Shown piece by piece: positions 27,301-64,000 of a stretch of DNA of 64,000 nt. How positions within the stretch are numbered: position 1 is the first letter of the stretch; each line of letters begins with the position of its first letter. The notes under the pieces were generated by a model that saw only the letters and a list, made by a program, of their open reading frames with translations, was not told where the DNA came from and made no database searches. Position numbers and translations under genes: made by a program. This DNA is from Paramacrobiotus metropolitanus (taxonomy: Eukaryota; Tardigrada; Eutardigrada; Parachela; Macrobiotidae): positions 62,001-126,000 of the forward strand of contig NW_026570317.1 of the NCBI RefSeq assembly GCF_019649055.1, read 5' to 3'.

Positions 27301-27306
27301 TTTCCC
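27243..27306 (-). promoter_or_regulatory. Programmed -1 frameshift signal: GGGAAAC plus H-type pseudoknot
   Basis: The slippery heptamer G GGA AAC lies at 27,306-27,300 in the Gag reading frame. After a 6-base spacer comes an 11-bp perfect stem (27,293-27,283 with 27,274-27,264, GATCAGTAGGC/GCCTACTGATC). Its 8-base loop contains CCGGTG (27,281-27,276), which pairs exactly with CACCGG at 27,248-27,243, giving stem 2 of a classical pseudoknot. The Gag stop (27,287-27,285) lies inside stem 1. The -1 frame is open into Pol with no stop. GGGAAAC is a known retroviral slip site. A Gag-Pol fusion is strongly predicted. Confidence 0.92.
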
Positions 27307-36266: not shown

Positions 36267-36415
36267 AGAAGATATAGCGCTAGTTTAGCGTCAACTCGGT
36301 TTCGGTCCGGTTTTTGACCGGTCCGCGGTTCGGCTTGTGATCGGTTCGCTTTTCAGTCGGTTTGAACCGGACTGGAGCTGATTTCCCCTTTCTTTGGTTT
36401 ATTTTTCCCCACCCT
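36267..36415 (+). repeat. Polinton left TIR, 149 bp
   Basis: Exact reverse complement of 59,257-59,405. The inner end is ...TTTTTCCCCACCCT. It contains GC-rich GGTCCGG/CCGGTCCGCGG sub-palindromes. Confidence 0.97.
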
Positions 36416-36464
36416 ATTTTTTGTATGAACATGAATGAACATGAATGATACACACCGTTTCAAA

Positions 36465-37249
36465 CTAACAGAAAAAAGCCCAGCACTTACGGAAAATTAC
36501 ACCCCGACAAATTGGGCATAGCAGCAGTTTGCTTGAACATTTTGCACAACAAACTAAATGACCACATGGTCTGAACATGATTTCCGAATCATTTTCATAG
36601 CAGACTTTACAGCTTAATTTCTCTTTGGGGTCTTCAGAAGTTGTGGTTGGCGGAGCTTCTCGCGATAGTCCACAACATGTTGTTTCGGCTTCTTGGCGTT
36701 TTGTTCGAACATCGTTGATGAACGCTAAGCCCTTTGTTTGAACAAGATACGGAAATTTTGGGTAAGTCCAAGCGTGCTCTTCCCACGGAACATCATTTTA
36801 TCCCAAGCATAAAGTGCACCACCACAGTGAAAACAGCGTACACAATCATCTCGGCCTTCATAATAAAAGCCGGCTGCAGCCATATCTCTGGAATGTTGGT
36901 GTTTGTTGGCAGGCCATTCGGCATAAGTAGCAAAGCGTGTTCTGTAGTCTCTCATTGCCGGTGAGTGCTGAATATATTTTCCCGATCCGGATTCTTCCAT
37001 ACCCCTTACACAGTCTGGACGTGCTAAGCGGTGTCGGTAGTCTGGTTTATACTGTGAGTTCACCCAGTCACCCATAACATAGTCGCAGTATGCGCAGTGA
37101 ATTTCGTCATGCTGCCCTTGATAAAAGAACCCTTGGCTTGCCAGTTCTTCAGGGGTATAAAGCGACTGGTCGGGCCAGTTTTCAAAACTCTTGAAGCGAT
37201 TGCTCATCTGTGTCGTATCCATTTTGCAGATAAACTGAACAGTAGTCAT
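36465..37249 (-). pseudogene. IAP-like BIR-BIR-RING protein, one frameshift
   Basis: First ATG 37,249; a TATATAAA at 37,269-37,262 makes the ATG at 37,222 a more likely start. BIR 1 (RFKSFENWPD, then CAYC and H-x6-C) is complete. BIR 2 begins RFATYAEWP and has CFHC, then the frame breaks near 36,790 in a run of four A. The continuing frame carries the rest of BIR 2, where the expected last zinc Cys position reads Phe, and then a C3HC4 RING (CGH, CAKC, CPIC; about 36,480-36,610). It ends at TAG 36,465-36,467. IAP proteins of this plan block caspases or act as ubiquitin ligases; baculoviruses carry similar ones. The break may be decay or an assembly error. Confidence 0.85.
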
Positions 37250-45465: not shown

Positions 45466-45871
45466 ACTGTCGTAGTGCTTTTTTTTCGATGGCTTTGTTT
45501 TTATATACCATTGGATAACATCAGTACACTTTAACCGCTTCTGATAACTCTCATTTAAAACCGCATGCCTTGGGGTGGTGGTTGCAGTAATAGTGGAATT
45601 ACAGTGTTATGGTAATGGTTGTGGTTGTTTTTGATGATGGAGATTGTTGTTTGAAATAATACAACGTGGAGCGTTTTCGTTAGTTATTTTCACGTTAAAA
45701 CATGTCGAAAAAAAGGCCGAGCGGTTACTTACCGGCGCTGCTAGCGCCGGTAAGTATCCACTCGCGCCCACTGAGACGCCCAAAGGTGTGGCTAAAACAC
45801 TGTTGACCAATTGCATCGCATTACAGAAAACATCAGACCAATAAGCACATGCTACAGTAATTGAGCTCGTC

Positions 45872-45879
45872 TATAAAAG
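45872..45879 (+). promoter_or_regulatory. TATA box of DNA polymerase gene
   Basis: CTATAAAAGT, 58 bases before ATG 45,930, at a good distance for a short 5' leader. Confidence 0.75.
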
Positions 45880-45929
45880 TTGCGCGGCACAAGATTTTTC
45901 TTCATTTTAATCTTTCACGTCTGGCGAAA

Positions 45930-48900
45930 ATGACTTATCAGCTGTCTGCTTCTGATCATGCGGCTATTGCGGCCATACTCAGTGAGCCGTGGATGGATGT
46001 TGATGAAGAGCAGCAGCAGCAGCAGCAGCAGGTTAATGATGCGTACCAGTTAACAGTCGAGGATCAAGCAGCCTTTGATCACATGCTAGCTAATCCCAAT
46101 GAGTTCAATGAACATGATGAACAGACTCTGGCAACGGCTTTGCTGCACCTGGATCAGGTTGGTCAGCTAAGCCCGGGATCTTTGGCTGCCGCTCTTGCTC
46201 TAGCGCAACTAGGCGACTGGCAGTATGAAGATCCTTTAGCGCCGCAAGCTGGTGGAAATGTGGCTCGAGATGAGTCGCTACCCGATTTCTCAGGTCTCTT
46301 TCAACTGATCAAAGAATCGTTTTCAAAACCTTCAACAGCACTGAACAGAAATACCGTGTCCAAATAGCGTCGCTGCCGCGAATTTTTGCAAAAGAAGAAA
46401 CCATGCTCATTATGCCAGAAATTTTACGCGTCATAATGGATTTATGTTTTAAAGAATTCGCCCCGACGGACTGAGTTGTTGTGGCTCTCAAATCGGATGG
46501 TCTTGAAAGAGCGTTCTACTTAACCATGCGAAAGCTTTCCGACTTCAGCATACCGGCTTTTATGCACCGTAATAAGCTTCTGAACTCCGGTCAGAAGTTG
46601 GTGATTGACGATTCATTCACCATACGGATCTGGCGTTCTATCATGCCGGCTGGTGGATCCTGGTTCCTCAGACATCAGCACGTCAAGCATGACAGAAACC
46701 GTTTCAAGAAATCCATTGTATCCGTTCGCGTGAAGAATAACCTATGCTTACCCGCCGCGCTGTTTCTGGGATAATTTCGCCTGACGCATGATTTCGAAGT
46801 ACCACAGCATAAGTATAAATGGAGCAACTATATACGCGCAAACCGCACCGAGAATTTGGAGGACGAAGCAGTAAAGATAATGGAAGAGTGCCTCTTGCCG
46901 CCTGGTCGTTACTGCGATCTTGATGACCTGGAAGTTCTGCAGAAGGAAGCCTTCCCAGAGTTCCAAATCAAAGTCATTTCGGCCAATCAAGGTGATATGA
47001 TTATTGCGCGGGTGCCAGAACGCAAGACGACCGACATGCAAGAGATTTTCTTGTTGTTGGATAATGAGCATTTTGACCTTGTCACCACTTCTGCAACGAT
47101 TGCGATCGGCCATATCATCACAAAGAACGTCATCGTTGCGAGGGGAAGTGTAGGTTCTGTTACCGCAACAAGAGCGACTGTCTGGTGGAGAATCCTATTA
47201 CCTGCAGTGAATGCAGCCGTCGATTCCACAACCAACAGTGTTTTGAGATCCATAAAAGAAAAGGAAAAATGGAAAGAATTATTGTGAGCAAATGTTCATT
47301 TGCCAGACATGCGGTGTTTTCGTGAATCTTTCCAGTCGTGGCAAAAACGTAAGACACCAGTGTGGCGAAATTTACTGCAACACGTGCAACGGCTTCTTCC
47401 TCCAAGCCACGCATTTGTGCTACATAAAACCACTCAAGCCATCACCAGAATGGCAGCATGATGAAATGAAATACATTTTCTTCGATTACGAAACCTACAA
47501 CGATCCAGTAAATGGGCACGTGCCCACGTGCATCGTTGCGCAATACGCTGATGGTTCGGAAGTACGTTTTCCGGAAGATGGTCAACCAATGAATACGGAA
47601 GTTGACGAAGCATTTGGGCGCTGGTTGTTTCAAGAAAAGCATCGGGGATTTACTATCATAGCGCACAATTTTCGGGGTTATGATGGACATTTTGTCCTGA
47701 AGTACATGTTGGACAATGGTTTAAAAGGAGTGGAGGTCATAAAACGCGGTACGCAGCTGTTGGAATTACGGTATCGTAAACTGGGGATCCGGTCGCGTGA
47801 TACACTCAACTTTCTGGCTTTGAAGTTGAGCCAGTTACCAAAAGCGGTTGGCTTGGAAATCGAAGTGCAGAAAGGCGACTTTCCACACCGATTTCAACAA
47901 ACCGGAAAATTGGGACAAAACTGATTTGCCCTGGCCAGAACCGAATCAGTACATGATTGATGGAATGCGAAAAAAGCAAAAAGAAGAATTCCTGAAGTGG
48001 CACTCTGAAGCCAAAACGGCTGCCAATGGGGTGTTCGAATTTTCGCGAGCAGATGATGACATACTGCTCGAACGATGTGACGGTTTTGCGCGTTTGTGCG
48101 CTAAAGTTTATCAGCGATTACCAAGCTCTGACTTCGCTGAATCCTATGGAAAGTATGACCATGCCTTCGGCCTGTTACCGGTACTGGAGAATGTTTCACC
48201 TTCAGGAAACCAAAGTTGCAGCTTTATCCAGTCACGGACCGCACAGAAACCGACGGACTAGTATTCAAGCCACGCAATGGCTGGAGTGGGAGAACATGAG
48301 TGCAAATGGCCGTATACAACATGGTCGGAACGGAAAAGAAGTTAAAATTGGGCGATACTTCGTGGACGGATTTGACGAGGACACACAAACCGTTTACGAG
48401 TACAACGGCTGCGTCTTCCATGGACACCCATTCTGCACCGAAGAGAACGATGTTGTACCATACTCCAAGAAGAAAATGCGTGAAGTCTACGAAGAGTTCC
48501 AGGAACGCGAACGCTTCCTCGAAAGTCAGGGGTACAATGTGGAAGTGAAATGGAGCTGTGAATGGCTTAAGGAACGACAAGATCCCGATATTGCCGCATT
48601 TCTATTGAATATGAACATTCGTGAGCCAATGAATCCTCGTGACGCTTTCAAAGGAGGCAGAACGAATGCGAGTCGATTGTATTACCAAGTGAAGGACAAT
48701 GAAGAAATTAGACACTATGACGTTGTCAGTCTATACCATTCGTGAATAAGACCAAGGCGTATCCGGTTGGCCATCCTGAAGTAATCGTATCCAATTTCAA
48801 GGATGCCAAAGAATATTTTGGCCTTGTCTTCTGTAAAGTAGCGGCTCCGGATCAATGCCTGTATCCAGTCTTGCCGGCCACGATAAACGGCAAACTCATG

Positions 48901-50009
48901 TTTGTTCTGTGCAAAAAATGCGCCATGGAAAAAGCGGCAAGTCGCTGTAAGCATACAGACGATGAGCGCTGTTTCGAAGGGGTTTGGGCTACACCAGAAC
49001 TTCATCATGCGATCGATGTGGGGTATCGCGTTGTGGAAATGTATGAAGTGTGGCACTGGACGCAGTCTGACACCAAACTTTTTGCGGCATACATGGACAA
49101 GTTTTTGAAAGTGAAAATGGAAGCCAGTGGTTGGCCTGCGTGGTGCGATACCGAAGAAAAGAAAGCCAATTTTATTCGGATGGTTAAAGAGCGCGAAGGC
49201 ATCTCCTTGGATCCTGATGCTATGGTTTTCGATGCTGGAAAGAAGAGCACTACCAAGGTTGTGGTGAATAGTCTTTGGGGTAAAACCGGTCAGAGTTGCG
49301 ATATGAACTCAACGGAGTTTGTCTACGACCCCAAACGGTACTCTGATCTGTGTCGTTCAAAAGCTATTGAAATACATGATGTCTATGGCGTAAGCCCAAC
49401 GTGTCTGATGGTAACACACTCCGAAAGTGGACGATTTCAATGAAGGTAGCAATGGCACGAATGTTGTCATTGCCGCTTTCACCACCAGTCATGCGCGACT
49501 CATTCTACTATCCCTTATGGAAAAATTGGGCGAACGCCTCTTGTACTACGACACGGATTCCGTGATATTCATTCACCGACCTGGCGACTGGCTTCCTGAT
49601 ACCGGCAGTATTCTTGGTGATTGGGATAACCAGCTAGAAGCAGGCGAGAATCATATCGTCAAATTCGTGTCCTGCGGTCCAAAAGTGTACAGCTACGAAA
49701 CCGATACGGGGCGTATTGAGTTGAAAGTAAAAGGTATGATGCAGAACGGATTCACGGAAGATATTCTGGACTGGGACTCTGTCACGAAGGAGTTGACGCG
49801 GACTGGAAAAAGCCTTGGATTTCAACCAGCTGAAGCGACTACTGGATGGCGTGGATGGACATGTGCAGGTTGTATACCCAGAATACATCAAACGGAATGG
49901 AAAAACCCAAGAAATTGATACTGTTCAGCTGGCTAAAAAATTGAATCTTGTTTACGATAAACGCATCATGTTGGATGATTTTACAACGCTGCCTTTTGGC
50001 ACGCGATAA
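45930..50009 (+). pseudogene. PolB: Protein-primed DNA polymerase B, multiply broken
   Basis: Starts at ATG 45,930 with an acidic N-terminus containing poly-Gln (CAG run at ~46,009-46,030). Coding signal continues through many frames: a Cys-rich region (~47,290-47,420), exonuclease motifs FFDYET (47,482) and HNFRGYDGHF (47,667), polymerase motif A (DVVSLY, ~48,720), motif B (KVVVNSLWGKTG, ~49,256) and motif C (YYDTDSV, ~49,545). Breaks seen: frame change near 46,330, TGA at 46,472-46,474, stop at 46,772-46,774, and frame changes near 47,100, 47,910, 48,030, 48,735, 49,435 and 49,830. Polinton PolB copies the element by protein priming. This copy cannot make full-length enzyme unless the breaks are assembly errors. 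Total span of about 1,360 codons fits the family. Confidence 0.9.
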
Positions 50010-50049
50010 AAAAGAGGGTGGGGAAAAATAAATAAAAGAAAGGGGAAAA
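50009..50049 (+). repeat. Internal copy of the TIR inner edge
   Basis: AAAAAGAGGGTGGGGAAAAATAAA, then AAAGAAAGGGGAAA, matches the inner ~38 bases of the right TIR (59,251-59,290) with a few changes. It sits just after the PolB stop, between convergent genes. Confidence 0.75.
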
Positions 50050-50050
50050 C

Positions 50051-50251
50051 CTACTCTGTTTGCATCGCTTCGTCACCGACCATTACATCCAACACCTCTT
50101 TCGTAATTTTTCTCGATTCCTCCAGCTGCGTACGATTGTTGGGCTTGACAAAATAGGAAACAATTTCTAGAGTATTAAAAACTACTAGCAGCATGGTAGC
50201 TAGTACTGCAAGGAATACCGATGCTGCTTTTTTTGCTGTTGGCTTAACCAT
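50051..50251 (-). CDS. Small single-pass membrane protein, 66 aa
   Basis: ATG at 50,251. A basic N-terminus (KPTAKKAAS) precedes a ~20-residue hydrophobic span (FLAVLATMLLVVFN), then a charged tail. It lies at the end of the minus-strand virion gene cluster, just downstream of the protease. Small membrane proteins are found in some Polinton-like viruses. No specific family recognised. Confidence 0.55.
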   Translation of the reverse strand: MVKPTAKKAASVFLAVLATMLLVVFNTLEIVSYFVKPNNRTQLEESRKITKEVLDVMVGDEAMQTE

Positions 50252-50744
50252 TTCTTATAAGGTGGTGTATAAATGTTGCGTCACGGACTACAGTCCTCAA
50301 TCGAAAAAACTTGTTGATGAATTTGCATACAAATTTATCGTTAACCCCTTTATGCTTAGTGAGAGCTGACATAACATCTTTGAATGAGAACCCACAGCAG
50401 CGTAGTAAGACGAAGAACATACAATATTGGCCGCATACGGTGCTATCATTGTTTTGTCGCTCAGTGTTCGACATTATGACAAAGTCATTGTCTATCCATT
50501 TTTTAATGTCATCTGAATAATCACCGGGATTTTTCCCGTACGAATCAAAAACCTCCATCGTTTCTGGTTTTATACAGAAAAATGCTACCCAGTGTTCACC
50601 CGCCGCACCTGACGGTTGAGTGTTTGATATGTATGCACCTGGAAATTCTTTTACTGGTAGTGTATCGCTTGCGAATACTCCGACAAAAATGTCGCGAACG
50701 TTAGGATCTTGTTTGAGCGCTGATTCTATTTGTAGGCTGTTCAT
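50244..50744 (-). CDS. PRO: Adenain-like cysteine protease, intact
   Basis: 166 residues, ATG at 50,744 overlapping the capsid stop as ATGA. Catalytic triad positions visible: His in GEHWVAFF (about residue 51), Asp in VFDSYGKNPGD (about 68) and Cys in VCGQYCMFF (about 103), in the order His-Asp-Cys of adenovirus protease and Ulp1. It would mature virion proteins. Length is normal for Polinton PRO. No break seen. Confidence 0.88.
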   Translation of the reverse strand: MNSLQIESALKQDPNVRDIFVGVFASDTLPVKEFPGAYISNTQPSGAAGEHWVAFFCIKPETMEVFDSYGKNPGDYSDDIKKWIDNDFVIMSNTERQNNDSTVCGQYCMFFVLLRCCGFSFKDVMSALTKHKGVNDKFVCKFINKFFRLRTVVRDATFIHHLIRNG

Positions 50745-52088
50745 GGCGCAAAGTCGAAAAGTACTTGGCGATTGTTGTTAATGTCGATAATGTTATCGAA
50801 GACCATCATAGCTACGCAAACTATACCTTCGGGTAGTGGTTTTGCAAATTTAACATTGATATTTAAATTACCCTGCCTTATCAACGACACAGCTCCTCTA
50901 CCCGTGTGGCCGCGAGTGAAGTCAAACCCAAAAATATTAAAACCGCCCTTGTTAAATACGGATCTGTCAAATGGTAGTTCACCGTGGCCTTCATGCAGCC
51001 GCTCTAGAGTATCTAACAACCCTTCATACCCCTCAATTGACGCACCGTTTTGGAAAACTAGGTTATACCCACGCGTATGAAAAAGCTGTCCATCAATTTC
51101 TGCACTTAAGCTAGATATGTGGAAATGATGAAAATTGAACGGTGTCGATTTAAATTCGCCCACAAACGAGCGATTGGGTGACATCGCAAAGAACATAACC
51201 TTGGGTAGCTGTCCAATGACAATATTCGCCCAGGATAGTTGCTGCTGACCTGTTTGCATTGTGGTCTGTCTTAAAGCGACCCGTTCAATATGGTATTTTG
51301 CATTAGTTGTGACTAGTTGCTTCGTCATAGCTGCTAAAAAGTCTGGAGCAGGCTCATACTTTCGAACTTTTAGCTTAAGGTTTCGAATAGCAAAATTTTT
51401 TGGAGCCGCTAGATCACTATCAGCAAGAAAACAAAGATTTGCTCTGTTTCGTATCAGTTTAATGCTCAACTCGACACCGGGAATTAGCGGTCGGTCTTGC
51501 TGGAACAAATCGCAGTGCAGTTTACCAGACAACTGCAACGGACGACAAGTCTGCAGCCATGTTCTACGCGTTTCAGTTCCCTTACTATGAAACGTTGTTG
51601 CTCCAGTTATTTCATTCATGTATAACGAAGTCCTTTTCAAGGTCAGTGTCTAACGCAAATCCGCAGAGGGTCAACTGACTGTTCTGAGCCTGAACAGTGA
51701 AACCCAAGAGGGATTCAATGTACGCTCGAATATGATACAAAGGGCTGTTATCGGTTATATTGCGCCCTCCCAATGAAACCGTTACTGACTGGAACAAACT
51801 ATGCAAAATATTGTTAATCGGGGCAAGACAGTCTTTTTCTGTCGGGTGAGCACCAGAAGAGTTAGTAACGTATAAATCACATGAAAATCTAATATCAGCT
51901 AAACTGATAAGCTCGGTTTGACACGGTGAAATTGTGAATACAATATCGTTTGAATCGTCGGTCACGGCTTGAGAAGGCCCCAAGTCATAGTCATGTGTAT
52001 TCCACCTTTCCGCAAGTGTAGCTGGAAGATAAAACAAATGACTTTCCAACAGCATGGAGGGTTCTGAGCCAGCTTCAATAAGAGCCAT
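50741..52088 (-). pseudogene. MCP: Major capsid protein, double jelly-roll type, one frameshift
   Basis: N-terminal part starts at ATG 52,088 (LLESHLFYLP, VTVSLGGRNI) and stays open to 51,612. The C-terminal part (open 51,640-50,741) contains FNIFGFDFTRG and a Phe-Asp-Asn motif near the end (MVFDNIIDI), typical of Polinton capsid proteins. The two parts are in different frames and overlap by 29 bases, so one small indel lies between 51,612 and 51,640. Capsid stop TGA overlaps the protease ATG. Neighbouring protease and virion genes are intact. Confidence 0.85.
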
Positions 52089-52138
52089 CGTTACAGTTTG
52101 TCTTTTATAGCGTCTATCGCGCGTTGACGTTTCGTGGT

Positions 52139-52474
52139 TTAGATCATTCTCTTTCGACGACGACCCTTAATACCCGACCCCTGTTGTTGAGCTGTGTTGC
52201 GTAATTTCTCGCTAACACGCTCAACAGCTTTATCGATCACTGATTCCACAGCCTTGCTGGCCATTGTTTTCATGTGAGGTTGTGCAGTTGCAATTAAATT
52301 GTTTATATGCGGTGCAGCTTTGCTGAACAAACCCTTTGCAGAGCCAATCACGCGACCCCAGAAATTACCACCTTTCATGGGCGCGCCACGATAATATGGC
52401 ATACCGTACCCATGCTGCTTGGTAAAGATCTGGGTGTAGCGGTGCTCGTCAAATTTTAACTCCTGTAGAACCAT
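52139..52474 (-). CDS. Small basic virion-type protein, 111 aa
   Basis: ATG at 52,474, one base after the penton-like stop. A Gly-rich segment (MKGGNFWGRVIGSAKGLF) precedes an amphipathic helix and an Arg/Lys-rich end (KGRRRKRM). This plan resembles adenovirus pVI/pX-type membrane-lytic or core proteins, and similar small proteins occur beside the capsid gene in Polintons. Family assignment tentative. Confidence 0.6.
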   Translation of the reverse strand: MVLQELKFDEHRYTQIFTKQHGYGMPYYRGAPMKGGNFWGRVIGSAKGLFSKAAPHINNLIATAQPHMKTMASKAVESVIDKAVERVSEKLRNTAQQQGSGIKGRRRKRMI

Positions 52475-52475
52475 T

Positions 52476-53256
52476 TTAATGCTTCTTCGGTCGAAAGTGA
52501 AGTTTAATTACTGATGTACCTGGATGAAAGAGTACTTCCTTCCCTAAATCATCGCGCAGGGCTATTTCTATAGTTTGAAATGTATGGTAGGCTAGCGGCA
52601 TATAATGTGGATTCTCAAAACGGATTACTGTCTCTCTAAATGAGTGAGCTTGAGTTGATATGGTACGTAGTAAGGGCACCATCGAATCACCCACCAACCC
52701 ATGTGTAATCACATCACAATACACATGCACGAGACGATTATGCTGTCACGGATATAAAGTATGAGTCAGACTATGTGCACTGTTATATGAGTATTGCTGC
52801 AGTATGCCTAGTGCGCGCACGTATTCGATGCCTGTAAAATTCAAAGCAACGCCGGGCGTGATGTGTAACTGAGCTGCTTGACCACTTACCATTATTTGGC
52901 CGAAGGTTTTGAGTCCCTATCGTTCTCGTCTATCCTCAACAGTTTGTTAACCGTATAAAGTAAATGATTTTCATCCTCAAACACATGTTTATCGATAAAT
53001 CTAGAAATTGTACGTGGCATACCATCCTTCGAAATCATAATAGATAATCCAGTACTAAACTTTATCCGCATAGCATAATTTCTTTAGTACTAAACTTTAT
53101 CCGCATAAACGAGGTAGCATAATTTCTTGACAGACCTACTTCCCACGCACCGTCCAAGTCTACAGGTCTAGCGAGAAGTGTTGTAAACTTGCCAGGACAG
53201 TTATCAGGGTATAACCCCTCTGACGCCGAAGACGGTAAAGTCATGTAAAAACTCAT
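52476..53256 (-). pseudogene. Penton-like minor capsid protein, broken
   Basis: ATG at 53,256 overlaps the integrase stop as ATGA. The N-terminus (MSFYMTLPSS, FTTLLARPVDLDGAWEVGL) matches the opening of Polinton minor capsid (penton) proteins. The C-terminal part (52,730-52,476: HVYCDVI, GDSMVPLLR) also fits. The middle changes frame more than once, and near 53,050-53,110 a ~40-bp segment (CTAAACTTTATCCGCATA...GCATAATTTCTT) is duplicated in tandem, which destroys the frame. Confidence 0.75.
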
Positions 53257-54323
53257 TCTAAATCTTCTTTGTTTTCCCAAGAGTCATAAGCTGGACCGTA
53301 TCCATACAAACGTACTAAGTATTGGACTTTTCCTTTATGTTTTCTTTCCCTTAATATCCTGGAGATCCTGTGATATGGCTTTTCTTTCATTGTAACTTTA
53401 GATAACTCTTCCGGATAAAACGTACCATCCACGGGCTCGCCGGCTAAATCTTCGACAGTGTAAAGGTAATGGCTCCCACTCCGTGTAGTGTGGGTTATTT
53501 TAAAGATTTCTTCTGTGAAACGAGTCTCATACCCTTTTTCAAAAGTTTGTTTCTTTTTGGCCAAACGTACATGATCGCCAACAGCAAATTCTGGTTTTGA
53601 ATTTTTCATATCTTTCTGTTCATCAACCATCTTCTGGAGAATTTGCTCAGCTTCCTCAGGACCTACGTCTTTCGGGGCTACACCTGTAGCCGAATGTTTT
53701 GTAGAATTGTATGCGGATAAAACCTTAGGAAGGACATCTATGAATCGGTATGTGTTGTTTTCGGTCATGAACACGTATAACCGCTCTTCAATTGTACGAT
53801 TTAAACGTTCCACCATTGCACACTTCACGTCATCGTTTTTTGTTGTAAAAAAAGTAACGTTACACTCTTCAAAAAACTTACGCATGTCTTTACCAACAAA
53901 TTCCTTACCATTATCGCTTTGAACACGTAATGGAGGATAATCACTCTTGTAAATTTTCAAAAGCGCTTCGCGGATATCAGTAGGCCGTTTTGATTTAACC
54001 GGCTCAGCCCATGCATAACGAGAAAAGCCGTCGATGCACATAAGAATGTATTTAAAGCCATCGTTGTAACTAGCAAATTTTTGAAAATCCACAAGACCAA
54101 TTTGATGTTGGTCGCCAACATTAACGGAAATAATTTTTCGGCGTTTGAACTTGGAGCGAAAAGGTTTGTGTTGTGTATATGCGTCTTTGGTTTCTAAGGA
54201 AGCTTCAACTTGCTTTCGTGTATATCCATGCTTCCGGGCTTCTTTGTACAAGCGGTCTATATCACCTAAACTCCCCTGAGAAGTAGGATTTAAATACAGA
54301 TCATCTAATGTGGGCTTCATCAT
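53253..54323 (-). CDS. INT: Retroviral-type integrase with chromodomain, intact
   Basis: 356 residues, ATG at 54,323. DDE residues lie in GLVDFQ (about residue 76), RVQSDNGKEF (about 136) and CAMVERLNR (about 172). A C-terminal chromodomain follows (YHRISRILRER...YLVRLYGYG..YDSWENKEDL, residues ~310-356). This is the Polinton c-integrase, which cuts and joins element ends and makes 6-bp duplications. Start overlaps the stop of the upstream ORF, and its stop overlaps the penton start. Confidence 0.93.
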   Translation of the reverse strand: MMKPTLDDLYLNPTSQGSLGDIDRLYKEARKHGYTRKQVEASLETKDAYTQHKPFRSKFKRRKIISVNVGDQHQIGLVDFQKFASYNDGFKYILMCIDGFSRYAWAEPVKSKRPTDIREALLKIYKSDYPPLRVQSDNGKEFVGKDMRKFFEECNVTFFTTKNDDVKCAMVERLNRTIEERLYVFMTENNTYRFIDVLPKVLSAYNSTKHSATGVAPKDVGPEEAEQILQKMVDEQKDMKNSKPEFAVGDHVRLAKKKQTFEKGYETRFTEEIFKITHTTRSGSHYLYTVEDLAGEPVDGTFYPEELSKVTMKEKPYHRISRILRERKHKGKVQYLVRLYGYGPAYDSWENKEDLE

Positions 54324-55417
54324 GTGTAGGACAGCCAGCCACCTCTTTGTATGCCACCTTTATGTCTTTTAGCGGGAGGACCTGTCGGTTTATTACGTTT
54401 TCTCAACTGGATTTTTTCTTGACCGGAACTTTCAGCTTTATTTGATTGTACATATGTTAATGCTTTTAGCGGCGCTGCGTCGGTAATAGCTGCCTGCTCT
54501 TTCCCACGGGCTTCGATTGCTAATTTTTGAGAACTATTGGCAATTGCAGTCCTTTGCTTAGGTTTAGGTGAGGCTTTTTGAAGCTTGTTAGAAGTTTTTG
54601 GCTTAATTGCCACGGTTTTAGGTCCTTCGATAGCAAGTTGCTGATCTTTTTCCTTTCGACGGAGCGTGTTCGACGTTTTCGGTTTAACAACCACCTCTTT
54701 CATTCCTTCAATGGCTAGTTGGTTATTTTCCAAAGCCGGAACAGATGCAATGTCAGGTACTTGATATTCTAACACACCATCGGCAGGAAATTCTACTATC
54801 GGAATACTAGGTGGAGTAGGAGCGTATTCTATTGCAGCTTTTAAAGTGCTATCGGATTTTGGAATGCGTCTAACATGGACTTTTTTAACCAAAGGTGGTT
54901 TTTTTGGCTTTCGATAAACGTGTTTGACCACCGGTTTGCTTGGAACAACTTGTATTTGCGGCTCACCAGGCACTTGTACATATTGTACAATTGGTTGTGA
55001 TGGAACTTCGACATACTTGTATTCAACTAACGGTGGGGCTGTTCCTTGATTACCCTGTTCCTGAAATGTTGGAACAGCCTGCACAGCTTGATGGGTAACG
55101 TTTGGACTTGCCTGACTATATTGATCATTAAGAACACCTGTAGAATGAGCTTGTATACTTTTGTCAATCATTATGGGTGATATATTGGGAGCGGTAGTCT
55201 CAACTTGTACTGTTTCCAACAACGGAGTTGCGGCTGGAGCGTTACCTGCATTGTTTAAGCGTTGGTAATCAAAAGCGGCCTTCGCCATGAGCTGCTGTGT
55301 AATTTCATGACCGATCTCTTGAGCCTTTTTCCAAGCAGTCGGCGCGGGAACACCTTCCCGAGCATGCTTCAGTTTTAGAAACTCGGTTTCGCTGGGAACT
55401 AAAACGTACGTTTTCAT
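54320..55417 (-). CDS. Pro/Val-rich Polinton protein, 365 aa
   Basis: ATG at 55,417 overlapping the previous stop. N-terminal ~60 residues are helical (MKTYVLVPSETEFLKL). The middle has Val/Pro/Gln repeats (VEVPSQPIVQYVQVPGEPQ), then a basic stretch and three LAIEG/LAIEA repeats separated by KPKTSN. The end is basic with Gly-Gly (KGGIQRGG). Proteins with a similar opening occur between ATPase and integrase in other Polintons, with no known role. Intact. Confidence 0.7.
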   Translation of the reverse strand: MKTYVLVPSETEFLKLKHAREGVPAPTAWKKAQEIGHEITQQLMAKAAFDYQRLNNAGNAPAATPLLETVQVETTAPNISPIMIDKSIQAHSTGVLNDQYSQASPNVTHQAVQAVPTFQEQGNQGTAPPLVEYKYVEVPSQPIVQYVQVPGEPQIQVVPSKPVVKHVYRKPKKPPLVKKVHVRRIPKSDSTLKAAIEYAPTPPSIPIVEFPADGVLEYQVPDIASVPALENNQLAIEGMKEVVVKPKTSNTLRRKEKDQQLAIEGPKTVAIKPKTSNKLQKASPKPKQRTAIANSSQKLAIEARGKEQAAITDAAPLKALTYVQSNKAESSGQEKIQLRKRNKPTGPPAKRHKGGIQRGGWLSYT

Positions 55418-55734
55418 TTTGTTAGAAAAGATGAGACTAATGTACCTAACACTGGTAGCAAAACGTTGAGAAATCCGCCTTTTTGTTGTAATATTTTACG
55501 TTTCTTTAAACGGTCTGTACTGCGGTCAGCTAGACGCTTGATTGTTGAAGAATGTTTTCGAGCCCGAGCTAAATCAACTTTGCTAAGACCAGTGGTTTGC
55601 TTAACTAGGTTCAAGCAGGCTTCTTCGATTGCGCTTATTTGTTGTTAAGTTGCCAGCTGAAAAAAGCTTCTTCTCTGGCGTGGTGTCAGAAGCTTTAACG
55701 CTTCAATAAGTCGAAAAATATCTTCTGGTCTCAT
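55414..55734 (-). pseudogene. Small basic protein with hydrophobic end, in-frame stop
   Basis: ATG 55,734 overlaps the ATPase stop as ATGA. The frame is open except for a TAA at 55,645-55,647. The downstream part has a Lys/Arg-rich region (RSTDRLKKRKILQQK), then GG and a hydrophobic tail (FLNVLLPVLGTLVSSFL), a plan seen in small Polinton virion proteins. Function unknown. Confidence 0.6.
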
Positions 55735-56364
55735 TTTTCTACATTTATTCGTCTATACTCAAACACGTGCGACTGAAGGCGAACATCGTCTGGAGCTTCG
55801 GGTCTAAGATTATCAGTAAATATCCAAAAGGTTCCTTTATAGCCTTTCAGTAGGCTTCCAGCATGTGTGGCATACCTAACTGACGTGAAAGTGTTTTAAC
55901 TTGCTGAACGTCGCGAACTGATTTAAAAATTACCAAATACTGCGAATTCAAAGCAATATCACGCATGCTTCTTCCTTGCTTGTATAAATTTTGAGATATG
56001 AAAATTACAGAAACATTTTTATGATGAACGTCGCGAGTAAAAATCGTAGAACACTTGGGTTTCCAGCAATTTCTTCCAATAAATCATCTAAAACTAGCAG
56101 GCTGGGAACGTCTTTGTCAAAGAAGTTCTCATCTTCCAAGATGGGTCTAAGACCTTGGATAAGTTCAATATTTTTTTCAAAATCCTGGAATGCATTTTGC
56201 CACGTACCATAAGCATACACTATCCTAACAGGTGGTGGATTAAAACTCTCCGTAAGACTTTGCAAAAGTTTCATTGTAAAAGTTGATTTTCCTGACATAG
56301 TCGGGCCAGAAATATAAATCGTACACGGAGTTTTGAAGCGAAAATCAAAACTCAGTTTTTCCAT
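55731..56364 (-). pseudogene. ATP: FtsK/HerA-type packaging ATPase, one frameshift
   Basis: ATG at 56,364. Walker A GPTMSGKST (about residue 20) and Walker B LLVLDDLL (about residue 88) are present. The frame breaks near 56,010-56,040 and coding continues in another frame to a TGA at 55,731-55,733, with an ISQN sensor-type motif. Total ~211 codons, normal for the A32-like ATPases that load DNA into capsids. Break type: single-base indel. Confidence 0.85.
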
Positions 56365-56504
56365 TTCAAATTTCTTCTGGTTGATCTTGCTAGCTGTCGG
56401 TCACTTCACAATATACTCAAACACAAAAACTCTCAAATGGTGGTTCTGAAATGTTCAGATTTCTCGCTTTTTATTGCCGTAGTGGTATACTTTTCAAGGA
56501 GGTT

Positions 56505-57038
56505 TTAAATTTGTTCAATTGTGCGTTGAATCTGCAACAGTGATCTCGCTCCGAGAACTACACACTTTCCAGTATGGAAAACGTTAACGGTAGTTTTCAA
56601 TAACGGAAACCGTAGTTTGATCGCTGGAAAAAACTCAGGTTCATAGAAGAATGCGACACTTGTTGGCTTTTGTTTTAAAATTTGGCTATACAGCTTGTTT
56701 AAATTTATCATTTCACTGTAAGCGTACGTACAGACTATATTTGCCACAAAGCGCTCCTTAATAGTCACGTCGATACAATTTAGTGTCAGCATTCTCAAAT
56801 ACTCTTCTAATAGCCCATTCGATTCTTCTATGGACTTACCACCTATTACGATTGCCTTGCCATTCTGGAATATCTGGCAGAATGTATGTGACTGGTCTAT
56901 AAGTCTGATGTTAACTGCGTTAAAATTTTTCACCTTCGTAGCATGTTGCCCAAAAACTTGTAAAACTTGCTGAAGATCAACTTCCTTGTTGAACTGCACC
57001 GCCAGAATAACGTTGTGGATCTCCATGACTGAACGCAT
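56505..57038 (-). CDS. TATA-binding protein (TBP) homologue, core size, intact
   Basis: ATG at 57,038 gives 177 residues, the size of the TBP core (~180). Two direct repeats are visible. Repeat 1 has IHNVILAVQF, then FNAVNIRL, and IFQNGKAIVIGGKS. Repeat 2 has NIVCTYAY, FFYEPEFFPAIKLRF, then VFHTGKCVVLGARS. These match the TBP landmarks (SYEPELFPG; F.SGK.V.TGAK) in the right places. The Pro of the second-repeat stirrup is kept; several DNA-contacting Phe positions are altered. It sits upstream of the ATPase gene in the same direction. It would bind TATA elements or basal factors and could direct the element's own promoters. The open frame extends upstream to 57,221, but that part is hydrophobic and unlike TBP. 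Confidence 0.85.
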   Translation of the reverse strand: MRSVMEIHNVILAVQFNKEVDLQQVLQVFGQHATKVKNFNAVNIRLIDQSHTFCQIFQNGKAIVIGGKSIEESNGLLEEYLRMLTLNCIDVTIKERFVANIVCTYAYSEMINLNKLYSQILKQKPTSVAFFYEPEFFPAIKLRFPLLKTTVNVFHTGKCVVLGARSLLQIQRTIEQI

Positions 57039-57213
57039 TACTTGCAACAGTGTCAGCAAGAAGACTTTATATACTTCACTGCTGAGACTGTCGCAAATAA
57101 TGGCGTTTTCAGCCTTTTTTTGCTTAACAAAGAAGAGAATAAGAAACAAATAAGAATAATAGCAACAAAAACAACAAACAATTTTAATGTGTTTAGAAAT
57201 TTGAGAAGTGCGA

Positions 57214-57660
57214 TTAAACAATTAGAGCTTGCGCTTTAAAGCTATCGTCCAAGATTCGGGCCACATCAATGAATCCCATGTATGGTAGTTGAACAGAGCG
57301 CCCTGGCTGAGAAAACCTGATCGTACGCCCGTACTTCTCGTGCACCTTCAGAGTCAACTCCAGGCAAGCGGGGCCATCGAATTTCATTTTTTCCTGTTTG
57401 CCTTCGGATGCTGCGTGATCCAACGTGTCTTTCAAATGGCCACTCTTCAAGATCTCCAGCAATTCGGTAATTTCATTGTATCCGAATCAAATCCCCTTAT
57501 TCCATGCTTTACGCAAGCCCTCAGCATCCGCATTCGCTTCGAACACTAGAAATGCCCGTACTTCTTTGGAATTCCAGAACAGACTTACCACACTATTGAC
57601 TTTGTATACAGTGTAGCCGTCATGATCCCCAACAACATCCAGAATGCGTGCGAAATCCAT
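57214..57660 (-). pseudogene. Unrecognised Polinton protein, in-frame TGA
   Basis: ATG 57,660 with a clean TATA box 81 bases upstream. The frame is open to 57,214 except for a TGA at about 57,484-57,486. Both parts are protein-like (MDFARILDVVGDHDG; LLEILKSGHLKDTL; a later FIDVARILDDSF echoes the N-terminus). About 148 codons. No domain recognised. Confidence 0.5.
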
Positions 57661-57740
57661 TTTTGCTCTCGTGATGTTATGATAATAGAACTTGCTCTCA
57701 ACTTTTTGCAGAATGATTTAGAAAAGCTCAGCCGCGTCGC

Positions 57741-57747
57741 TTTTATA
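57741..57747 (-). promoter_or_regulatory. TATA box GAGTATAAAA
   Basis: Same 10-base word as in the Pro-rich gene promoter, 81 bases before ATG 57,660. Confidence 0.7.
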
Positions 57748-57759
57748 CTCTCAGATTGT

Positions 57760-58076
57760 TTCTGAGGAAACCAACCTCTCACCCCATTGGCCGTAAAATC
57801 TCGCATCACTCCGCCTTTTTCACACTTACGTCACTGGAATACTGAGAACGGTTGTACTATGTCGGTGATTGGCTGAAAAATGGACAAAGAAGCACACCCT
57901 CATACACTGTGTACCTTACTGATTGGTCAAACAACCTGTGACGTATCACAGAATATCAAAAATTTTTTGAAAATGAGCACTGTGATTGGCTAGAAATACA
58001 CTGGGTGCTAACCGCTGTTTTCCTGATCATATTTAAGAACTGGGGTTGAATCAGACAATTATTATTTGCAAAGAAA
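57760..58076. other. Divergent promoter region
   Basis: Lies between leftward and rightward genes. It contains three GATTGG/CCAAT-type words (near 57,793, 57,868 and 57,980) and a TATTTAAG (about 58,030) upstream of ATG 58,077. No gene. Confidence 0.5.
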
Positions 58077-59212
58077 ATGGAGAAAGATCAATTTCGCGGT
58101 TGCTTAGTCGGCGGTTTGCTTGGGGAATGCTTGTGCACCCCTACGAAGGCATACCATGGTATTGTGCATAAGGTCGCGCAGATGTTTGTTGATACCCGAG
58201 ATTACCGCACTCACCGTGAAAAAACCGTATTAACAAACGCGCTTGGTAATGCATTGTTGAATGACGGTGGTTATGATAAAACTTGTGCCGCTCATGCATG
58301 CGTTGACGCATATTACAATGCGCATCCCGTCATACGTTCGGCTTTTGGAAAACTAAAGGATATAATACATCACTGGAAGTGGAGCAATTATAAATCTCTT
58401 GACACATTACCCATTAAAATCGTACCACGTGTATACCAGAAAGGATACGGTCCTGCTGCGTGGATTTCAACGTATCCCCTGTACTTCAAGCATCAGACAG
58501 AAGTAATGATACGTAACGTACGTGACGTCGCCGAACTTACGCATCCTACGATGGAAGCTTACGGGGCATGTGAGCTTCAAGCCTACGCTATTGCCGTAGC
58601 ATTACAATATCCCAACTTTACTCCCGCACAGTTTCTGGACATGCTAATTACTCTGTGTGAAACAGGCGTTAGCCTTCACCAATATCAATTAAAATTAGTA
58701 CAAATAAAAACATTGCTGTCTCAAGAGACAAGTCTTGTGGTGAAAGCCCTTGGCAATGATTCCGCCGGACACTACGTGTTGGTTGATGTACGGACGGAAT
58801 AGCAACCCTGGCGGGTGCTATTGCCGGAGCTTGGCACGGTCTCAAAAGCATACCGTCAGTGTGGTTTGAACTGTGCGATGGATATAAGAGCAGTATTACC
58901 CTAGCCGACAAACTTGCCGAACATGCTAGCACCACCTTAACCAATCGCGAAATAGATGCGATCGGCAGCTACGGCACTTTAGGATCACGTTTGGAGTCGT
59001 TCAAAGGATGGCCACATCTCAAACCTTCACCCTGGGAATTAGCTGGAAATGGATTTTTTTATTTCGGCTTACTAGACTGTGTTCAGTGTTATTACTGCGG
59101 TTGTGAACTTAGAAATTTTGAGCTTGACTCAGATCCGCGTTGGGATCATTTATGTAAAACTAGCAATTGTCCTGCTACCAAGGGTTCTGATACTTTATAT
59201 TTTCACTTGTAA
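58077..59212 (+). pseudogene. ADP-ribosylglycohydrolase-like domain fused to BIR domain, one frameshift
   Basis: ATG 58,077. Residues 1-240: RGCLVGGLLGECL start, GYGPAAWISTYPL, and ELTHPTMEAYGACE match the ADP-ribosylhydrolase (DraG/ARH) fold. The metal-binding TDDT-type motif is replaced by REKTVLT, and the late GGDTDT motif is reduced to CTDG, so activity is doubtful. The first frame stops at 58,800-58,802. Another frame, open from 58,787, holds the ARH C-terminal helix (ATLAGAIAGAWHGL) and, without interruption, a BIR domain (RLESFKGWP, CYYC, H-x6-C) to 59,212. So the ARH tail and BIR share one frame and only one indel near 58,785 separates the halves. ARHs remove ADP-ribose marks; BIR binds caspases or related partners. 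Confidence 0.8.
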
Positions 59213-59256
59213 ATATCATGAGATAAAAATGTCATGAATAAACAAAATACAAAAAG

Positions 59257-59405
59257 AGGGTGGGGAAAAATAAACCAAAGAAAGGGGAAATCAGCTCCAG
59301 TCCGGTTCAAACCGACTGAAAAGCGAACCGATCACAAGCCGAACCGCGGACCGGTCAAAAACCGGACCGAAACCGAGTTGACGCTAAACTAGCGCTATAT
59401 CTTCT
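59257..59405 (-). repeat. Polinton right TIR, 149 bp
   Basis: Exact reverse complement of 36,267-36,415. Followed by target duplication AAGACT at 59,406-59,411. Confidence 0.97.
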
Positions 59406-61610: not shown

Positions 61611-62465
61611 ATGCATGGAAAATTAAGACCGTTGCTCCCCGGGCCGAAACATGGTGGCTGCACCGGACAGCAGATCGCCGAACGTGCGGGTGTTGATATC
61701 CATACAGTGGAAAATTATCTTCAAAAAAAGCCCGTTTGTCGACGAGGACCGAAGCTGACTGAAGAGCAGAAAAAGGAGATAGTAAGGCTCGTACGCCAAC
61801 GAGTCTGTGGATCACAAATTGCGAAACAGTTAAACATTGGCAAGACGGTTGTGAATCAATTTCGGCGAATGATGGGCCTTACGGAAGAGAAAAGGCAGAA
61901 GATCCTCCAACTATTCTATCGCGGCCTCTCTGAAACTGACATTATGCGCGAAATGAACGTAGAAAGGGATGCACTCAAGGCTGCACTTCAAAGCTTCGGC
62001 CAAAGTTTTGCCTTGCGGGGCAAAACCAGAGCGGTTGTCAGTCCGGAGCGCGAGCTAGAAATACTGAAGTGCTTCGATGAAGGCCACAGTAGGAACCATA
62101 TCATGGAGAAGTTCGGTCTGCCAGAGCGGTCCCTTAGAATTTTGATACATCAGAATGGGAAGACATTCGCGAAACGTTCCCAACAAAAATTCCAGCAGGT
62201 CCGAACTGATGTTCTGAAGCTCCGTGCCGTAGGACTGTCAGTGAGTGCCATAGCAGAACAGGTTCAAGTGAGCAGAGGAACAGTCAAGAACACGCTGAAA
62301 CAGGCCTGCCCAAAGTCGATCATACCGGAAGAACGACCGTTCAGCACCGTCGTGACTGCCCAGCAGTCTGGGATGGAGCTGCACAGTGGCGGAAGAGGGC
62401 AGGTCGTTCAGACAACGGGTGTAGCCGGCAGGAAGGTGGACGGGTGGATGGTGGATCTTCAATGA
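61611..62465 (+). CDS. Multi-HTH repeat protein, 284 aa
   Basis: ATG at 61,611 with a TGA upstream in frame. Successive HTH-like units: GQQIAERAGVDIHTVENYL, then LTEEQKKEI..GSQIAKQLNIGKTVV, KILQLFYRGLSETDIM, ILKCFDEGHSRNHIMEKFG, and LKLRAVGLSVSAIAEQVQVS. It is a relative of the left-edge gene (shared LTEEQK, CFDEG, IMEKF and KS.IPE) with one A+B pair instead of two. The last ~15 codons (GRKVDGWMVDLQ) are read from the minisatellite word that starts at 62,430, so the C-terminus was made by repeat invasion. No catalytic domain. Function unknown. Confidence 0.65.
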   Translation: MHGKLRPLLPGPKHGGCTGQQIAERAGVDIHTVENYLQKKPVCRRGPKLTEEQKKEIVRLVRQRVCGSQIAKQLNIGKTVVNQFRRMMGLTEEKRQKILQLFYRGLSETDIMREMNVERDALKAALQSFGQSFALRGKTRAVVSPERELEILKCFDEGHSRNHIMEKFGLPERSLRILIHQNGKTFAKRSQQKFQQVRTDVLKLRAVGLSVSAIAEQVQVSRGTVKNTLKQACPKSIIPEERPFSTVVTAQQSGMELHSGGRGQVVQTTGVAGRKVDGWMVDLQ

Positions 62466-62580
62466 AGGTCATCCACCTTCTGCAAAGGTCATCCACCTTT
62501 CTCATCCACCTTTCTGCAAAGGTCATCCACCTTTCTCGTCCACCTTTTTGTAAAGGTTATCCACCTTTCTGCCGAAGGTA
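62430..62580. repeat. Minisatellite block 1, AAGGTCATCCACCTTTCTGC
   Basis: Begins with AAGGTGGACGGGTGGATGGT, then 5-6 units of a ~20-bp repeat. The unit contains AAAGGT and ACCTTT, so adjacent units can pair. Confidence 0.9.
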
Positions 62581-63175
62581 ACCCTCCTTTTATCGAACAT
62601 GTTAACTTTCTGCTTTCTGATAATCTGTATAAAGGTTACTTATCACAATCGATTTTCCAGTCATTTCTATTCTTTCTGTTAAAAACTTGTAACTATCGTA
62701 CCAATTTGATTTAATCTTTCTATCGATCGTATACACCTTTTCTGCCAAGCGGTTTATGGTATCCGCGGATGACTAATCCAACGTCGGCGTCATGTTGTGC
62801 TTTTGGAGTCATTCATATGGTCTATGGATACCAATTCCTGCCATAATATGCTGGGAGCGACCGTAGCCATACTGTAGGCTCTGTCTTGTAGTAGAATTAT
62901 ATTCTGTAAATTAGTGCTGTTGCACCTATCCAGAATATACCCCTAATTGTGCACTAGTAGAACGGAGCGCAGCTTCACGAGTTCAAGGCGAAAATATAGC
63001 AACGTCTTCGTTTTGGTTGCCGTGGTCGCGCTACTATTGCAGTTTGTCAGTAATAGTTTTGCAACTTTTGTACACTAGGATTAATTTTACTAGTATCAAG
63101 AACAGTGCAGTTCTGGAGTACGGACAGCAAGGCAAACTCATGTGCGGAAGTTGTACAACTTAAATCGAGCGTTGT
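62581..63175. other. Spacer between minisatellite blocks, no gene
   Basis: No ORF, RNA gene or clear repeat seen. Confidence 0.45.
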
Positions 63176-63179
63176 TATG

Positions 63180-63340
63180 GTAGTCCACCTATCTTTAAAG
63201 TTCATCCACCTTTCTCCAAAGGTCATCCACCTTTCTGCAAAGGTCATCCACCTTTCTGTAAAGGTCATCCACCTTTATGTAAAGGTCATCAACCTTTCTG
63301 AAAGGTCATCCACCTTTCTGTGAAGGTAAACCTTTCTGTC
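63180..63340. repeat. Minisatellite block 2
   Basis: About eight units of the same ~20-bp repeat (AAAGGTCATCCACCTTTCTG), with variants TTCATCC and GTCATCA. Confidence 0.9.
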
Positions 63341-63675
63341 ATAAGTTATTTTTGTTCGATACAGCTGCATTTACTTTATACTTCGACCAGCAACCACTAA
63401 ATGCGCAGAAATGTGAGTGTTGCTGTCATCTAACGCTGTTGCGAGTCGATCACTTATTGATAAAATCTTTAAAAAGATACTGATTATTTTGAAAATTATT
63501 AGCTTCTTCACTGAATCAGACAGATTCGTTAAAATGTCGCCGAATTTTTTTATAAAAAATTGTTGAAGAAAAAGTGTTGGATACGGTTTAAGTAACGAAG
63601 CACAGCGAGATTACGTTACAGAGGTAACCGAAGGAATAGCAGGCAAAAAAAAACGAATTTGGCAGTCATCAGTTG
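63341..63675. other. Spacer, no gene
   Basis: AT-rich; nothing supported. Confidence 0.4.
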
Positions 63676-63785
63676 TAGCCGGCAGGAAGGTGGACGGTGG
63701 ATCTTCAATGAAGGTCATCCACCTTTCTGCAAAGGTCATCCACCTTTCTCACCCACCTTTCGGGAAAGGTCATCCACATTTTCGC
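63676..63785. repeat. Minisatellite block 3
   Basis: Opens with TAGCCGGCAGGAAGGTGGAC, the same word as at the 3' end of the HTH gene (about 62,420), followed by TGGATCTTCAATGA and about four ~20-bp units. Confidence 0.9.
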
Positions 63786-64000
63786 AGTTGCTGTTCACTG
63801 TTACATTCAACAATTAATCATAATCAAAACATAATCGACAACAGATTAATTACATAAAATAACTAAGCTAAAGTTCTTAAAAACCCAAGAAAGCCAGTTT
63901 GGCGAATGTTTGGCGAATGGCTACAGCTGCATTGGTCGTTTTCAACATCCCATGTTATGCCAAAAATCATCCACCTTCCTTCAAATCTCATCCAAGTTTT

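Follow-up and report, generated by a model that had tools for sequence, protein, structure and literature searches.

A Polinton within a 64,000-nucleotide stretch of the genome of the tardigrade Paramacrobiotus metropolitanus (the whole analyzed stretch, hereafter the window) almost certainly encodes its own TATA-binding protein (TBP), and we regard TBP, with very little doubt, as a regular component of these Polintons. We give a probability of roughly 0.6 to the reading that the element TBP would be used promoter-specifically, together with TFIIB and RNA polymerase II (Pol II) of the host. The gene and its immediate upstream region are as follows.

56505..57038, minus strand: TBP gene, 177 codons plus stop, conserved start ATG at 57026
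57065..57073, minus strand: TATATAAAG box upstream of TBP, 39-47 nt from the conserved ATG
57042..57096, minus strand: inverted repeat with 17-nt arms and a 21-nt spacer, TATA box central; the predicted RNA stem extends over ~57036-57102

An earlier note on this DNA had pointed to a 177-residue open reading frame (ORF) with both TBP repeats and a YEPEFFPAI motif. The coordinates proved right, the strand is minus (the plus-strand frame over the same interval is riddled with stops), and the motif is present in the protein. The window protein matched Pfam family PF00352 significantly (E 2.7e-24, 85.2 bits against a cut-off of 22.9) in two stretches that correspond to two tandem TBP repeats, and it matched TBPs in the PDB both as a single sequence (E 5.9e-9) and as a 29-sequence profile (E 5.6e-40). 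The AlphaFold2 model reached a pLDDT (predicted local distance difference test) of 96 when built from an alignment, against just 35.5 in single-sequence folding. In the structural comparison the top 38 matches of this predicted structure were TBPs, every one, consistent with the saddle fold, and in BFVD the best matches bearing names were giant-virus TBPs. Identification as TBP is thus supported by profile, structure, and residues. Since the first ATG is mostly absent outside the window family, the second (57026; MEIHNV..., 173 aa) was taken as the start conserved across families. An N-terminally extended TBP was considered and rejected: no ATG is conserved in the preceding stretch of the frame, and a stop occurs soon upstream in three loci (L033, L035, L038). 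The gene had also been described as intact among broken neighbours, which holds for the DNA polymerase, the putative major capsid protein, the ATPase, and the ORF just upstream, all interrupted in the window, and does not hold for the integrase, the protease, and a 365-aa ORF, which are open.

The genome (169.8 Mb in 533 contigs) was queried with four TBP searches, each scoring ~150 candidates at most with fragments included, so that the counts are lower bounds. For family-B DNA polymerases (PolB), 79 of 507 candidates from a PolB_2 search were scored, and the matches listed merge into 79 loci, the window's own polymerase not among them. A TBP was found within 15 kb of PolB in 67 of these 79 sampled loci (65 after two of the TBP searches), against a mean of 3.24 loci and a maximum of 10 in 2000 runs of uniform random placement. 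The arrangements recur: TBP lies on the opposite strand 0.9-1.6 kb away at 24 PolB loci, on the same strand 2.3-5.5 kb away at eight, on the opposite strand 6-8 kb away at 14 (the window arrangement likewise), and 9-13.6 kb away at 19, on the same strand in 17 of them. It is because of this proximity in repeated, oriented arrangements that we consider the TBP to be Polinton-encoded, as had been proposed from the letters of the window. Furthermore, the protease, the putative capsid protein, and two small ORFs of the virion block are common to the window element, its second copy on contig C151 (L039/L040), and the elements L041 and L042, the latter two belonging to two other TBP families than that of the window. 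The polymerase is common to the window, L039, and L041; L042 stops short of it.

At least 227 merged TBP loci were present in the genome, namely one host gene and at least 226 non-host loci, fragments included. Counting the window copy, 17 of them were near-full-length relatives of it (at least 89% identity over at least 176 of 177 residues), 16 of which had no internal stop. A sample of 142 loci was assembled from 38 loci out of the searches and 104 stretches retrieved by coordinates (100 of the 160 remaining TBP loci and four of 9-10 kb), and in 111 of these the frame was open across 140 or more of the 176 model positions. Removal of two duplicates and the host gene left 108 open Polinton TBPs, which fell into 15 families (F1 to F15) by single linkage at 60% identity, so the gene is not a lone captured host fragment. 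Family-median ratios of nonsynonymous to synonymous substitution rates (dN/dS) ranged from 0.059 to 0.284 in all ten families with three or more members, values that are biased low since they derive from open copies only and that include some pairs near silent-site saturation. Judged by these ratios, the Polinton TBPs are under purifying selection. They are 21-34% identical to the host TBP. The latter (C4, L001) shares 85-89% identity with the 120 best-listed database TBPs, and the closest PolB locus in the list is 336 kb away. One Polinton TBP (L082) matched the P. metropolitanus "TATA-box-binding protein-like" entry P0171 at 130 of 131 residues, and this public gene model omits 45 residues.

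Residue positions were assigned by alignment with the Hydra and host TBPs, with yeast correspondences from the Kaposi's sarcoma-associated herpesvirus (KSHV) ORF24 table of PMC12529657 where that table gives them. The window protein carries the DNA-kinking phenylalanines (F99, F116, F190, F207) and the base-contacting asparagines (N69, N159). Among 29 representatives, F99 and F207 were conserved in all, F190 and N159 in 28, and N69 in 27, and the TFIIB-facing E188 was kept in 27. DNA-facing positions, on the other hand, were altered almost uniformly (L114Q in 29/29, T215L in 28/29, T124N in 27/29), which suggests a preferred site that differs from that of the host TBP. The ten rows of the window clade have mostly F116 and V213, and the other 19 representatives Y116 and N213. 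A protein with these residues, E188 above all, may bind TATA DNA and recruit TFIIB. Most Polinton TBPs thus have a polar change in common with a viral TBP by which host Pol II is redirected, yet they keep E188.

Promoter sequences divide the families as well. Among the five families of the window clade, 42 of the 45 distinct upstream sequences have a TATAWA motif at a distance of 25-100 nt from the TBP start, and the remaining ten families have it in 1 of 45; the respective shuffled upstreams gave 12% and 5%. Since the families are related, this split is nearer to one between-clade contrast than to 90 independent cases. In families F2, F3, and F8 the TATA box lies at about -47, in the centre of an inverted repeat whose arms covary between families. 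In an alignment of 25 such palindromic upstreams, the 16 pairs amount to 400 cells, 91.8% of which are paired (85.3% in shuffles). Seven of the 16 pairs were changed on both sides and the covariation score was 0.294, and none of 500 shuffles, which leave the relatedness of the sequences in place, reached either value. The number of further pair types was unexceptional (131 of 500 shuffles), and sliding the arms out of register reduced pairing to 26-43%. One palindrome pair is unpaired in 24 of the 25 upstreams, with C.C in 19. A pattern derived from F2 and F3 occurred 44 times in the genome (0 for the reversed control), and 42 of these occurrences were on the strand of a listed TBP, no more than 300 bp upstream of it.

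This TATA-centred palindrome could be a regulatory switch, plausibly one for autoregulation. Alternatively, it may act as an RNA hairpin within a read-through transcript from the upstream ORF (in processing, in translation control, or as a small-RNA precursor), with the TATA box secondary. We find this rather doubtful, though it is compatible with promoter-specific use of the element TBP. The sequences do fold as RNA far better than shuffles (z -4.3 to -8.1 in all five folded, out of 25), the pairs changed on both sides would suit a stem, and G.T cells exceed A.C cells (38 versus 3, or 8 versus 3 by column pairs), a bias that pairing of the sense strand as RNA would produce. The G.T excess, however, comes from few independent events, TATAAA is kept in 24 of the 25 aligned sequences though stem letters vary, families F4 and F12 of the window clade have the TATA box without the palindrome, and an Rfam search gave a single chance-level match (E 0.54), far under the gathering score.

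Companion genes were found in other families. A gene of ~167 aa (VLDADWF...ARHSHGLVW...) precedes TBP directly, overlapping or abutting it, in F1 and F7 (L041:4424-4924, L007:1682-2233, and L003:1743-2255), and by eye the upstreams of F5, F10, F11, and F14 resemble this arrangement; the partner gene had no credible Pfam match. Divergent to the TBP pair is a gene with a PC4 coactivator domain (L041, 3358-4077, E 3.7e-8; L003, 2520-3230, E 1.9e-8). PC4 matches numbered ten genome-wide, one strong (81 bits), which is taken as the host gene, and nine weak (27-33 bits, cut-off 25), and all nine of the weak, non-host matches sit 1.07-1.54 kb from a TBP locus. No TFIIB gene was detected near the TBP/PolB elements, the genome-wide TFIIB-family matches being confined to three places on contigs that lack any listed TBP or PolB locus, and no RNA polymerase gene was seen among the element ORFs scanned. 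Host factors would therefore be needed.

In the mechanism that we favour, the element TBP would first be made from a TATA promoter readable by the host TBP. It would then bind promoters of the element, probably its own included, and recruit host TFIIB and Pol II, and transcription of the element would thereby be favoured over that of host genes. The earlier note suggested that the element rewires promoter recognition or supplies its own. Such a role, which we infer, is in keeping with the TFIIB-facing and intercalating residues that were retained, the DNA-facing residues that were altered, and the TATA boxes on element genes. Beyond this lies a wider reading that we hold only tentatively and would not bet on at even odds. 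In it, tardigrade Polintons would run a minimal, portable promoter-recognition system, with their own TBP (and PC4 in some lineages), borrowed TFIIB and Pol II, coevolution of TBP and promoters into at least two regimes, convergence with herpesvirus late-gene TBPs in the polarity of the DNA surface, and self-control through the palindrome in three families. One regime would be that of the window clade, with TATA boxes and mostly F116/V213, and the other that of the remaining 19 representatives, mostly TATA-less, with Y116/N213 and often behind the overlapping partner gene.

Several observations weigh against promoter-specific use of the TBP with host factors. At the level of the elements, 12 of the 79 PolB loci have no listed TBP. 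What weighs against the link to Polintons, rather than against promoter use, is that the capsid protein is named by position and the ATPase by its P-loop only, and that no terminal inverted repeat was found between the two end pieces of the window copy, whose ends are approximate, an apparent difference from Polintons/Mavericks. At the level of the protein, T124 is Ile rather than Asn in the window family (two of the 29 sequences), Tyr occupies position 116 in 20 of 29 and Phe in nine, and P191 and E186 are kept in only 13 and 14 of 29, respectively. As for promoters, 9 of the 15 families have no TATA box before the TBP gene, and F15 (one sequence) has just TATATA at -91; in three of three loci inspected, no TATA box precedes the partner ORF. 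De novo motif search in 14 putative late-gene upstreams recovered no shared motif beyond shuffles. Finally, TATA boxes are ordinary in animals, and the host TBP might serve all of them.

Another explanation is that the element TBP sabotages transcription: acting as a decoy or dominant negative, it would sequester TFIIB, TFIIA, or promoters of the host and so reduce host or antiviral transcription, instead of activating promoters of the element. Altered DNA-facing residues combined with a kept E188 would suit TFIIB binding without productive promoter binding, and the neighbouring BIR and ADP-ribosylglycohydrolase cargo looks host-directed. Nevertheless we judge it unlikely, since the intercalating aromatics and both base-contacting asparagines, nearly always kept among the 29 representatives, are needless for a mere TFIIB sponge, and both the PC4 gene beside TBP and the TATA boxes on element genes suggest use in cis. 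Less probable still is a role in targeting or replication, in which TBP would steer integration to promoters or aid replication together with a PC4-like single-strand binder. TFIIIB guides the integration of Ty elements, PC4 domains bind single-stranded DNA too, and the chromodomain of the integrase implies that target choice may matter to the element. TBP is, however, not adjacent to the integrase in the window element, where the TBP gene has a TATA box of its own. That the loci are a host TBP paralogue family merely near Polintons, or a recent capture of the host gene, can be dismissed as highly improbable: animals do have TBP paralogues (PMC3142196), but the 108 open copies have low identity to a host TBP that in turn reaches 85-89% identity to the best-listed database TBPs, a long, well-supported branch separates them from animal and cellular-looking TBPs (see below), and their position and orientation relative to PolB recur.

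A protein database search with the single window sequence (P0001) returned no match; the 29-sequence TBP profile matched 87 proteins, P0171 among them. We built a tree of 116 rows, with 29 Paramacrobiotus representatives, 77 metagenome proteins of at least 140 aa, and 10 animal TBPs including that of the host. The 10 animal TBPs and 22 longer metagenome TBPs, a tight group that we take to be cellular-looking, were separated from the other 84 rows by a branch with a length of 1.19 changes per site (support 100/99). Among the latter, the Paramacrobiotus TBPs were scattered among metagenome TBPs, with at least three changes forced by well-supported branches, in a tree that has long branches and an untested root, leaves out giant-virus sequences, and drew a program warning of unsettled bootstrap. 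The scattered positions indicate that the TBP trait probably reaches beyond P. metropolitanus, and in the tentative wider reading the related metagenome TBPs would point to a broader viral lineage with the same trait. No confirmed match was obtained in IMG/VR for the Polinton TBPs, their metagenome relatives, the putative capsid protein, or the polymerase, an absence that says little because cellular TBPs gave none either.

Virus-encoded TBPs are already known from giant viruses and mirusviruses, and mimics from herpes- and poxviruses. A TBP gene cluster is recorded in 59% of mirusvirus genomes versus 0% of Nucleocytoviricota in the same comparison (PMC10132985), and algal elements of putative mirusvirus origin carry TATA-binding proteins sporadically (PMC10675990). 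A word search of PMC11071308 and PMC12220804 did not return TBP. Among the papers listed from the open PMC literature, which leaves subscription papers mostly outside, no report of TBP as a regular Polinton gene was found.

Poxviruses transcribe with a polymerase of their own. The nucleocytoplasmic large DNA viruses and mirusviruses share a virus-encoded TBP fold with the tardigrade Polintons; their genomes are far larger, and many of them encode an RNA polymerase. With Polintons/Mavericks and adintovirus-like elements the window element has in common a family-B DNA polymerase, an rve integrase with chromodomain, and a length of ~13.6 kb, and less certainly an ATPase named by its P-loop, an adenain-like protease (match just below cut-off), and a putative capsid block recognized by position and conservation; to these, window-type elements add a near-regular TBP gene and, in some, a PC4 gene. 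Compared with cellular TBP, the nearly universal L114Q and T215L and the low identity to the host protein stand out. Another parallel is offered by KSHV ORF24 and the related late-gene TBP mimics of beta- and gamma-herpesviruses. According to PMC12529657, a viral TBP of this type works with host Pol II, and the mimics have conserved TBP phenylalanines and a more polar DNA surface, as Polinton TBPs do. T124N occurs in both the mimics and most Polinton TBPs, and L114 is replaced by S in herpesviruses and by Q in Polintons. On the other hand, ORF24 has four domains, ~750 residues, and no TFIIB-contacting glutamates (as described there), whereas the Polinton protein has ~165-180 aa, consists of the TBP domain only, and retains E188 in most representatives. 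Judged from its sequence, the Polinton TBP shares T124N (in most representatives, though not in the window family) and the polar residue at position 114 with ORF24, shows neither the glutamate loss nor the extra domains, and is not counted as a member of the ORF24 type. The poxvirus TBP-like transcription factors (PMC12917281) are far more distant from Polinton TBPs.

The remaining features of the window element are listed below.

45712..59294, strand not assigned: element, ~13.6 kb, aligning with the second copy on C151 (85-89% DNA identity)
45872..45879, plus strand: TATAAAAG, left end of the element
46475..49918, plus strand: Polinton-type DNA polymerase B, fragmented, its frame interrupted in the window (DNA_pol_B_2, E 2e-10 and 3.3e-10 for two pieces)
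50244..50744, minus strand: adenain-type cysteine protease, 39% to L041:2308-2817
50741..52088, minus strand: putative major capsid protein, two frames in the window, 43-45% to parts of L041:975-1778
52139..52474, minus strand: conserved basic ORF, putative virion block, homologue L041:574-969 (31% over 107 aa)
52476..52730, minus strand: conserved ORF, putative virion block, homologue L041:20-568 (35% over 86 aa)
53253..54323, minus strand: retroviral-type integrase with chromodomain (rve E 3.6e-12, Chromo E 2e-6)
54320..55417, minus strand: 365-aa ORF, open frame, function unassigned
56005..56364, minus strand: first part of a packaging-type ATPase with P-loop GPTMSGKST, its frame interrupted in the window (Pfam match sub-threshold)
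57214..57660, minus strand: 148-codon ORF upstream of TBP, open in L011, interrupted in the window, with no Pfam match
57740..57747, minus strand: TATAAAAG before the 148-codon ORF
58077..58802, plus strand: ADP-ribosylglycohydrolase-like cargo (PF03747, E 7e-11)
58859..59212, plus strand: BIR (inhibitor-of-apoptosis domain) cargo (PF00653, E 7.3e-15)

The ATPase owes its name to the P-loop and its context, since the Pfam match is sub-threshold. The protease homologue L041:2308-2817 matched Peptidase_C5 at E 8.7e-4 and 19.4 bits, slightly below the cut-off of 21.3. The putative major capsid protein is one frame of 474 codons in L039; it had no Pfam match and no convincing PDB match, and its identity is proposed from its position. 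A third TATAAAAG box lies at 52102, close before the capsid ORF and within the preceding reading frame. The ADP-ribosylglycohydrolase-like and BIR genes at the right end are plausible host-defence cargo, and BIR domains are present in L003 and L042 too. At the left end of the element, a 31-bp palindrome with 90% self-complementarity (45726-45756) is shared with the C151 copy. Elsewhere in the window, a second Polinton remnant in inverted orientation is represented at ~36267-37249 by right-end sequence and, by eye, a BIR-like ORF. A long Gypsy-type retroelement (by eye) occupies 18454-28718; its 2920-aa open frame has stretches resembling protease, reverse transcriptase, and integrase, and a gag-like ORF of 477 aa is also present. 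Repeats of ~21 bp (ATCCACCTTTCTGCAAAGGTC type) are clustered in blocks at 62443-63804, right behind an ORF with helix-turn-helix-like repeats (by eye).

Polintons are often put near the root of many eukaryotic DNA viruses. A small element that would have its own promoter recognition, and in which no TFIIB was detected, bears on how DNA viruses gained control of transcription. Likewise, 15 natural TBP families that are split by TATA-bearing versus TATA-less gene starts may serve as a test set for the evolution of TBP specificity.
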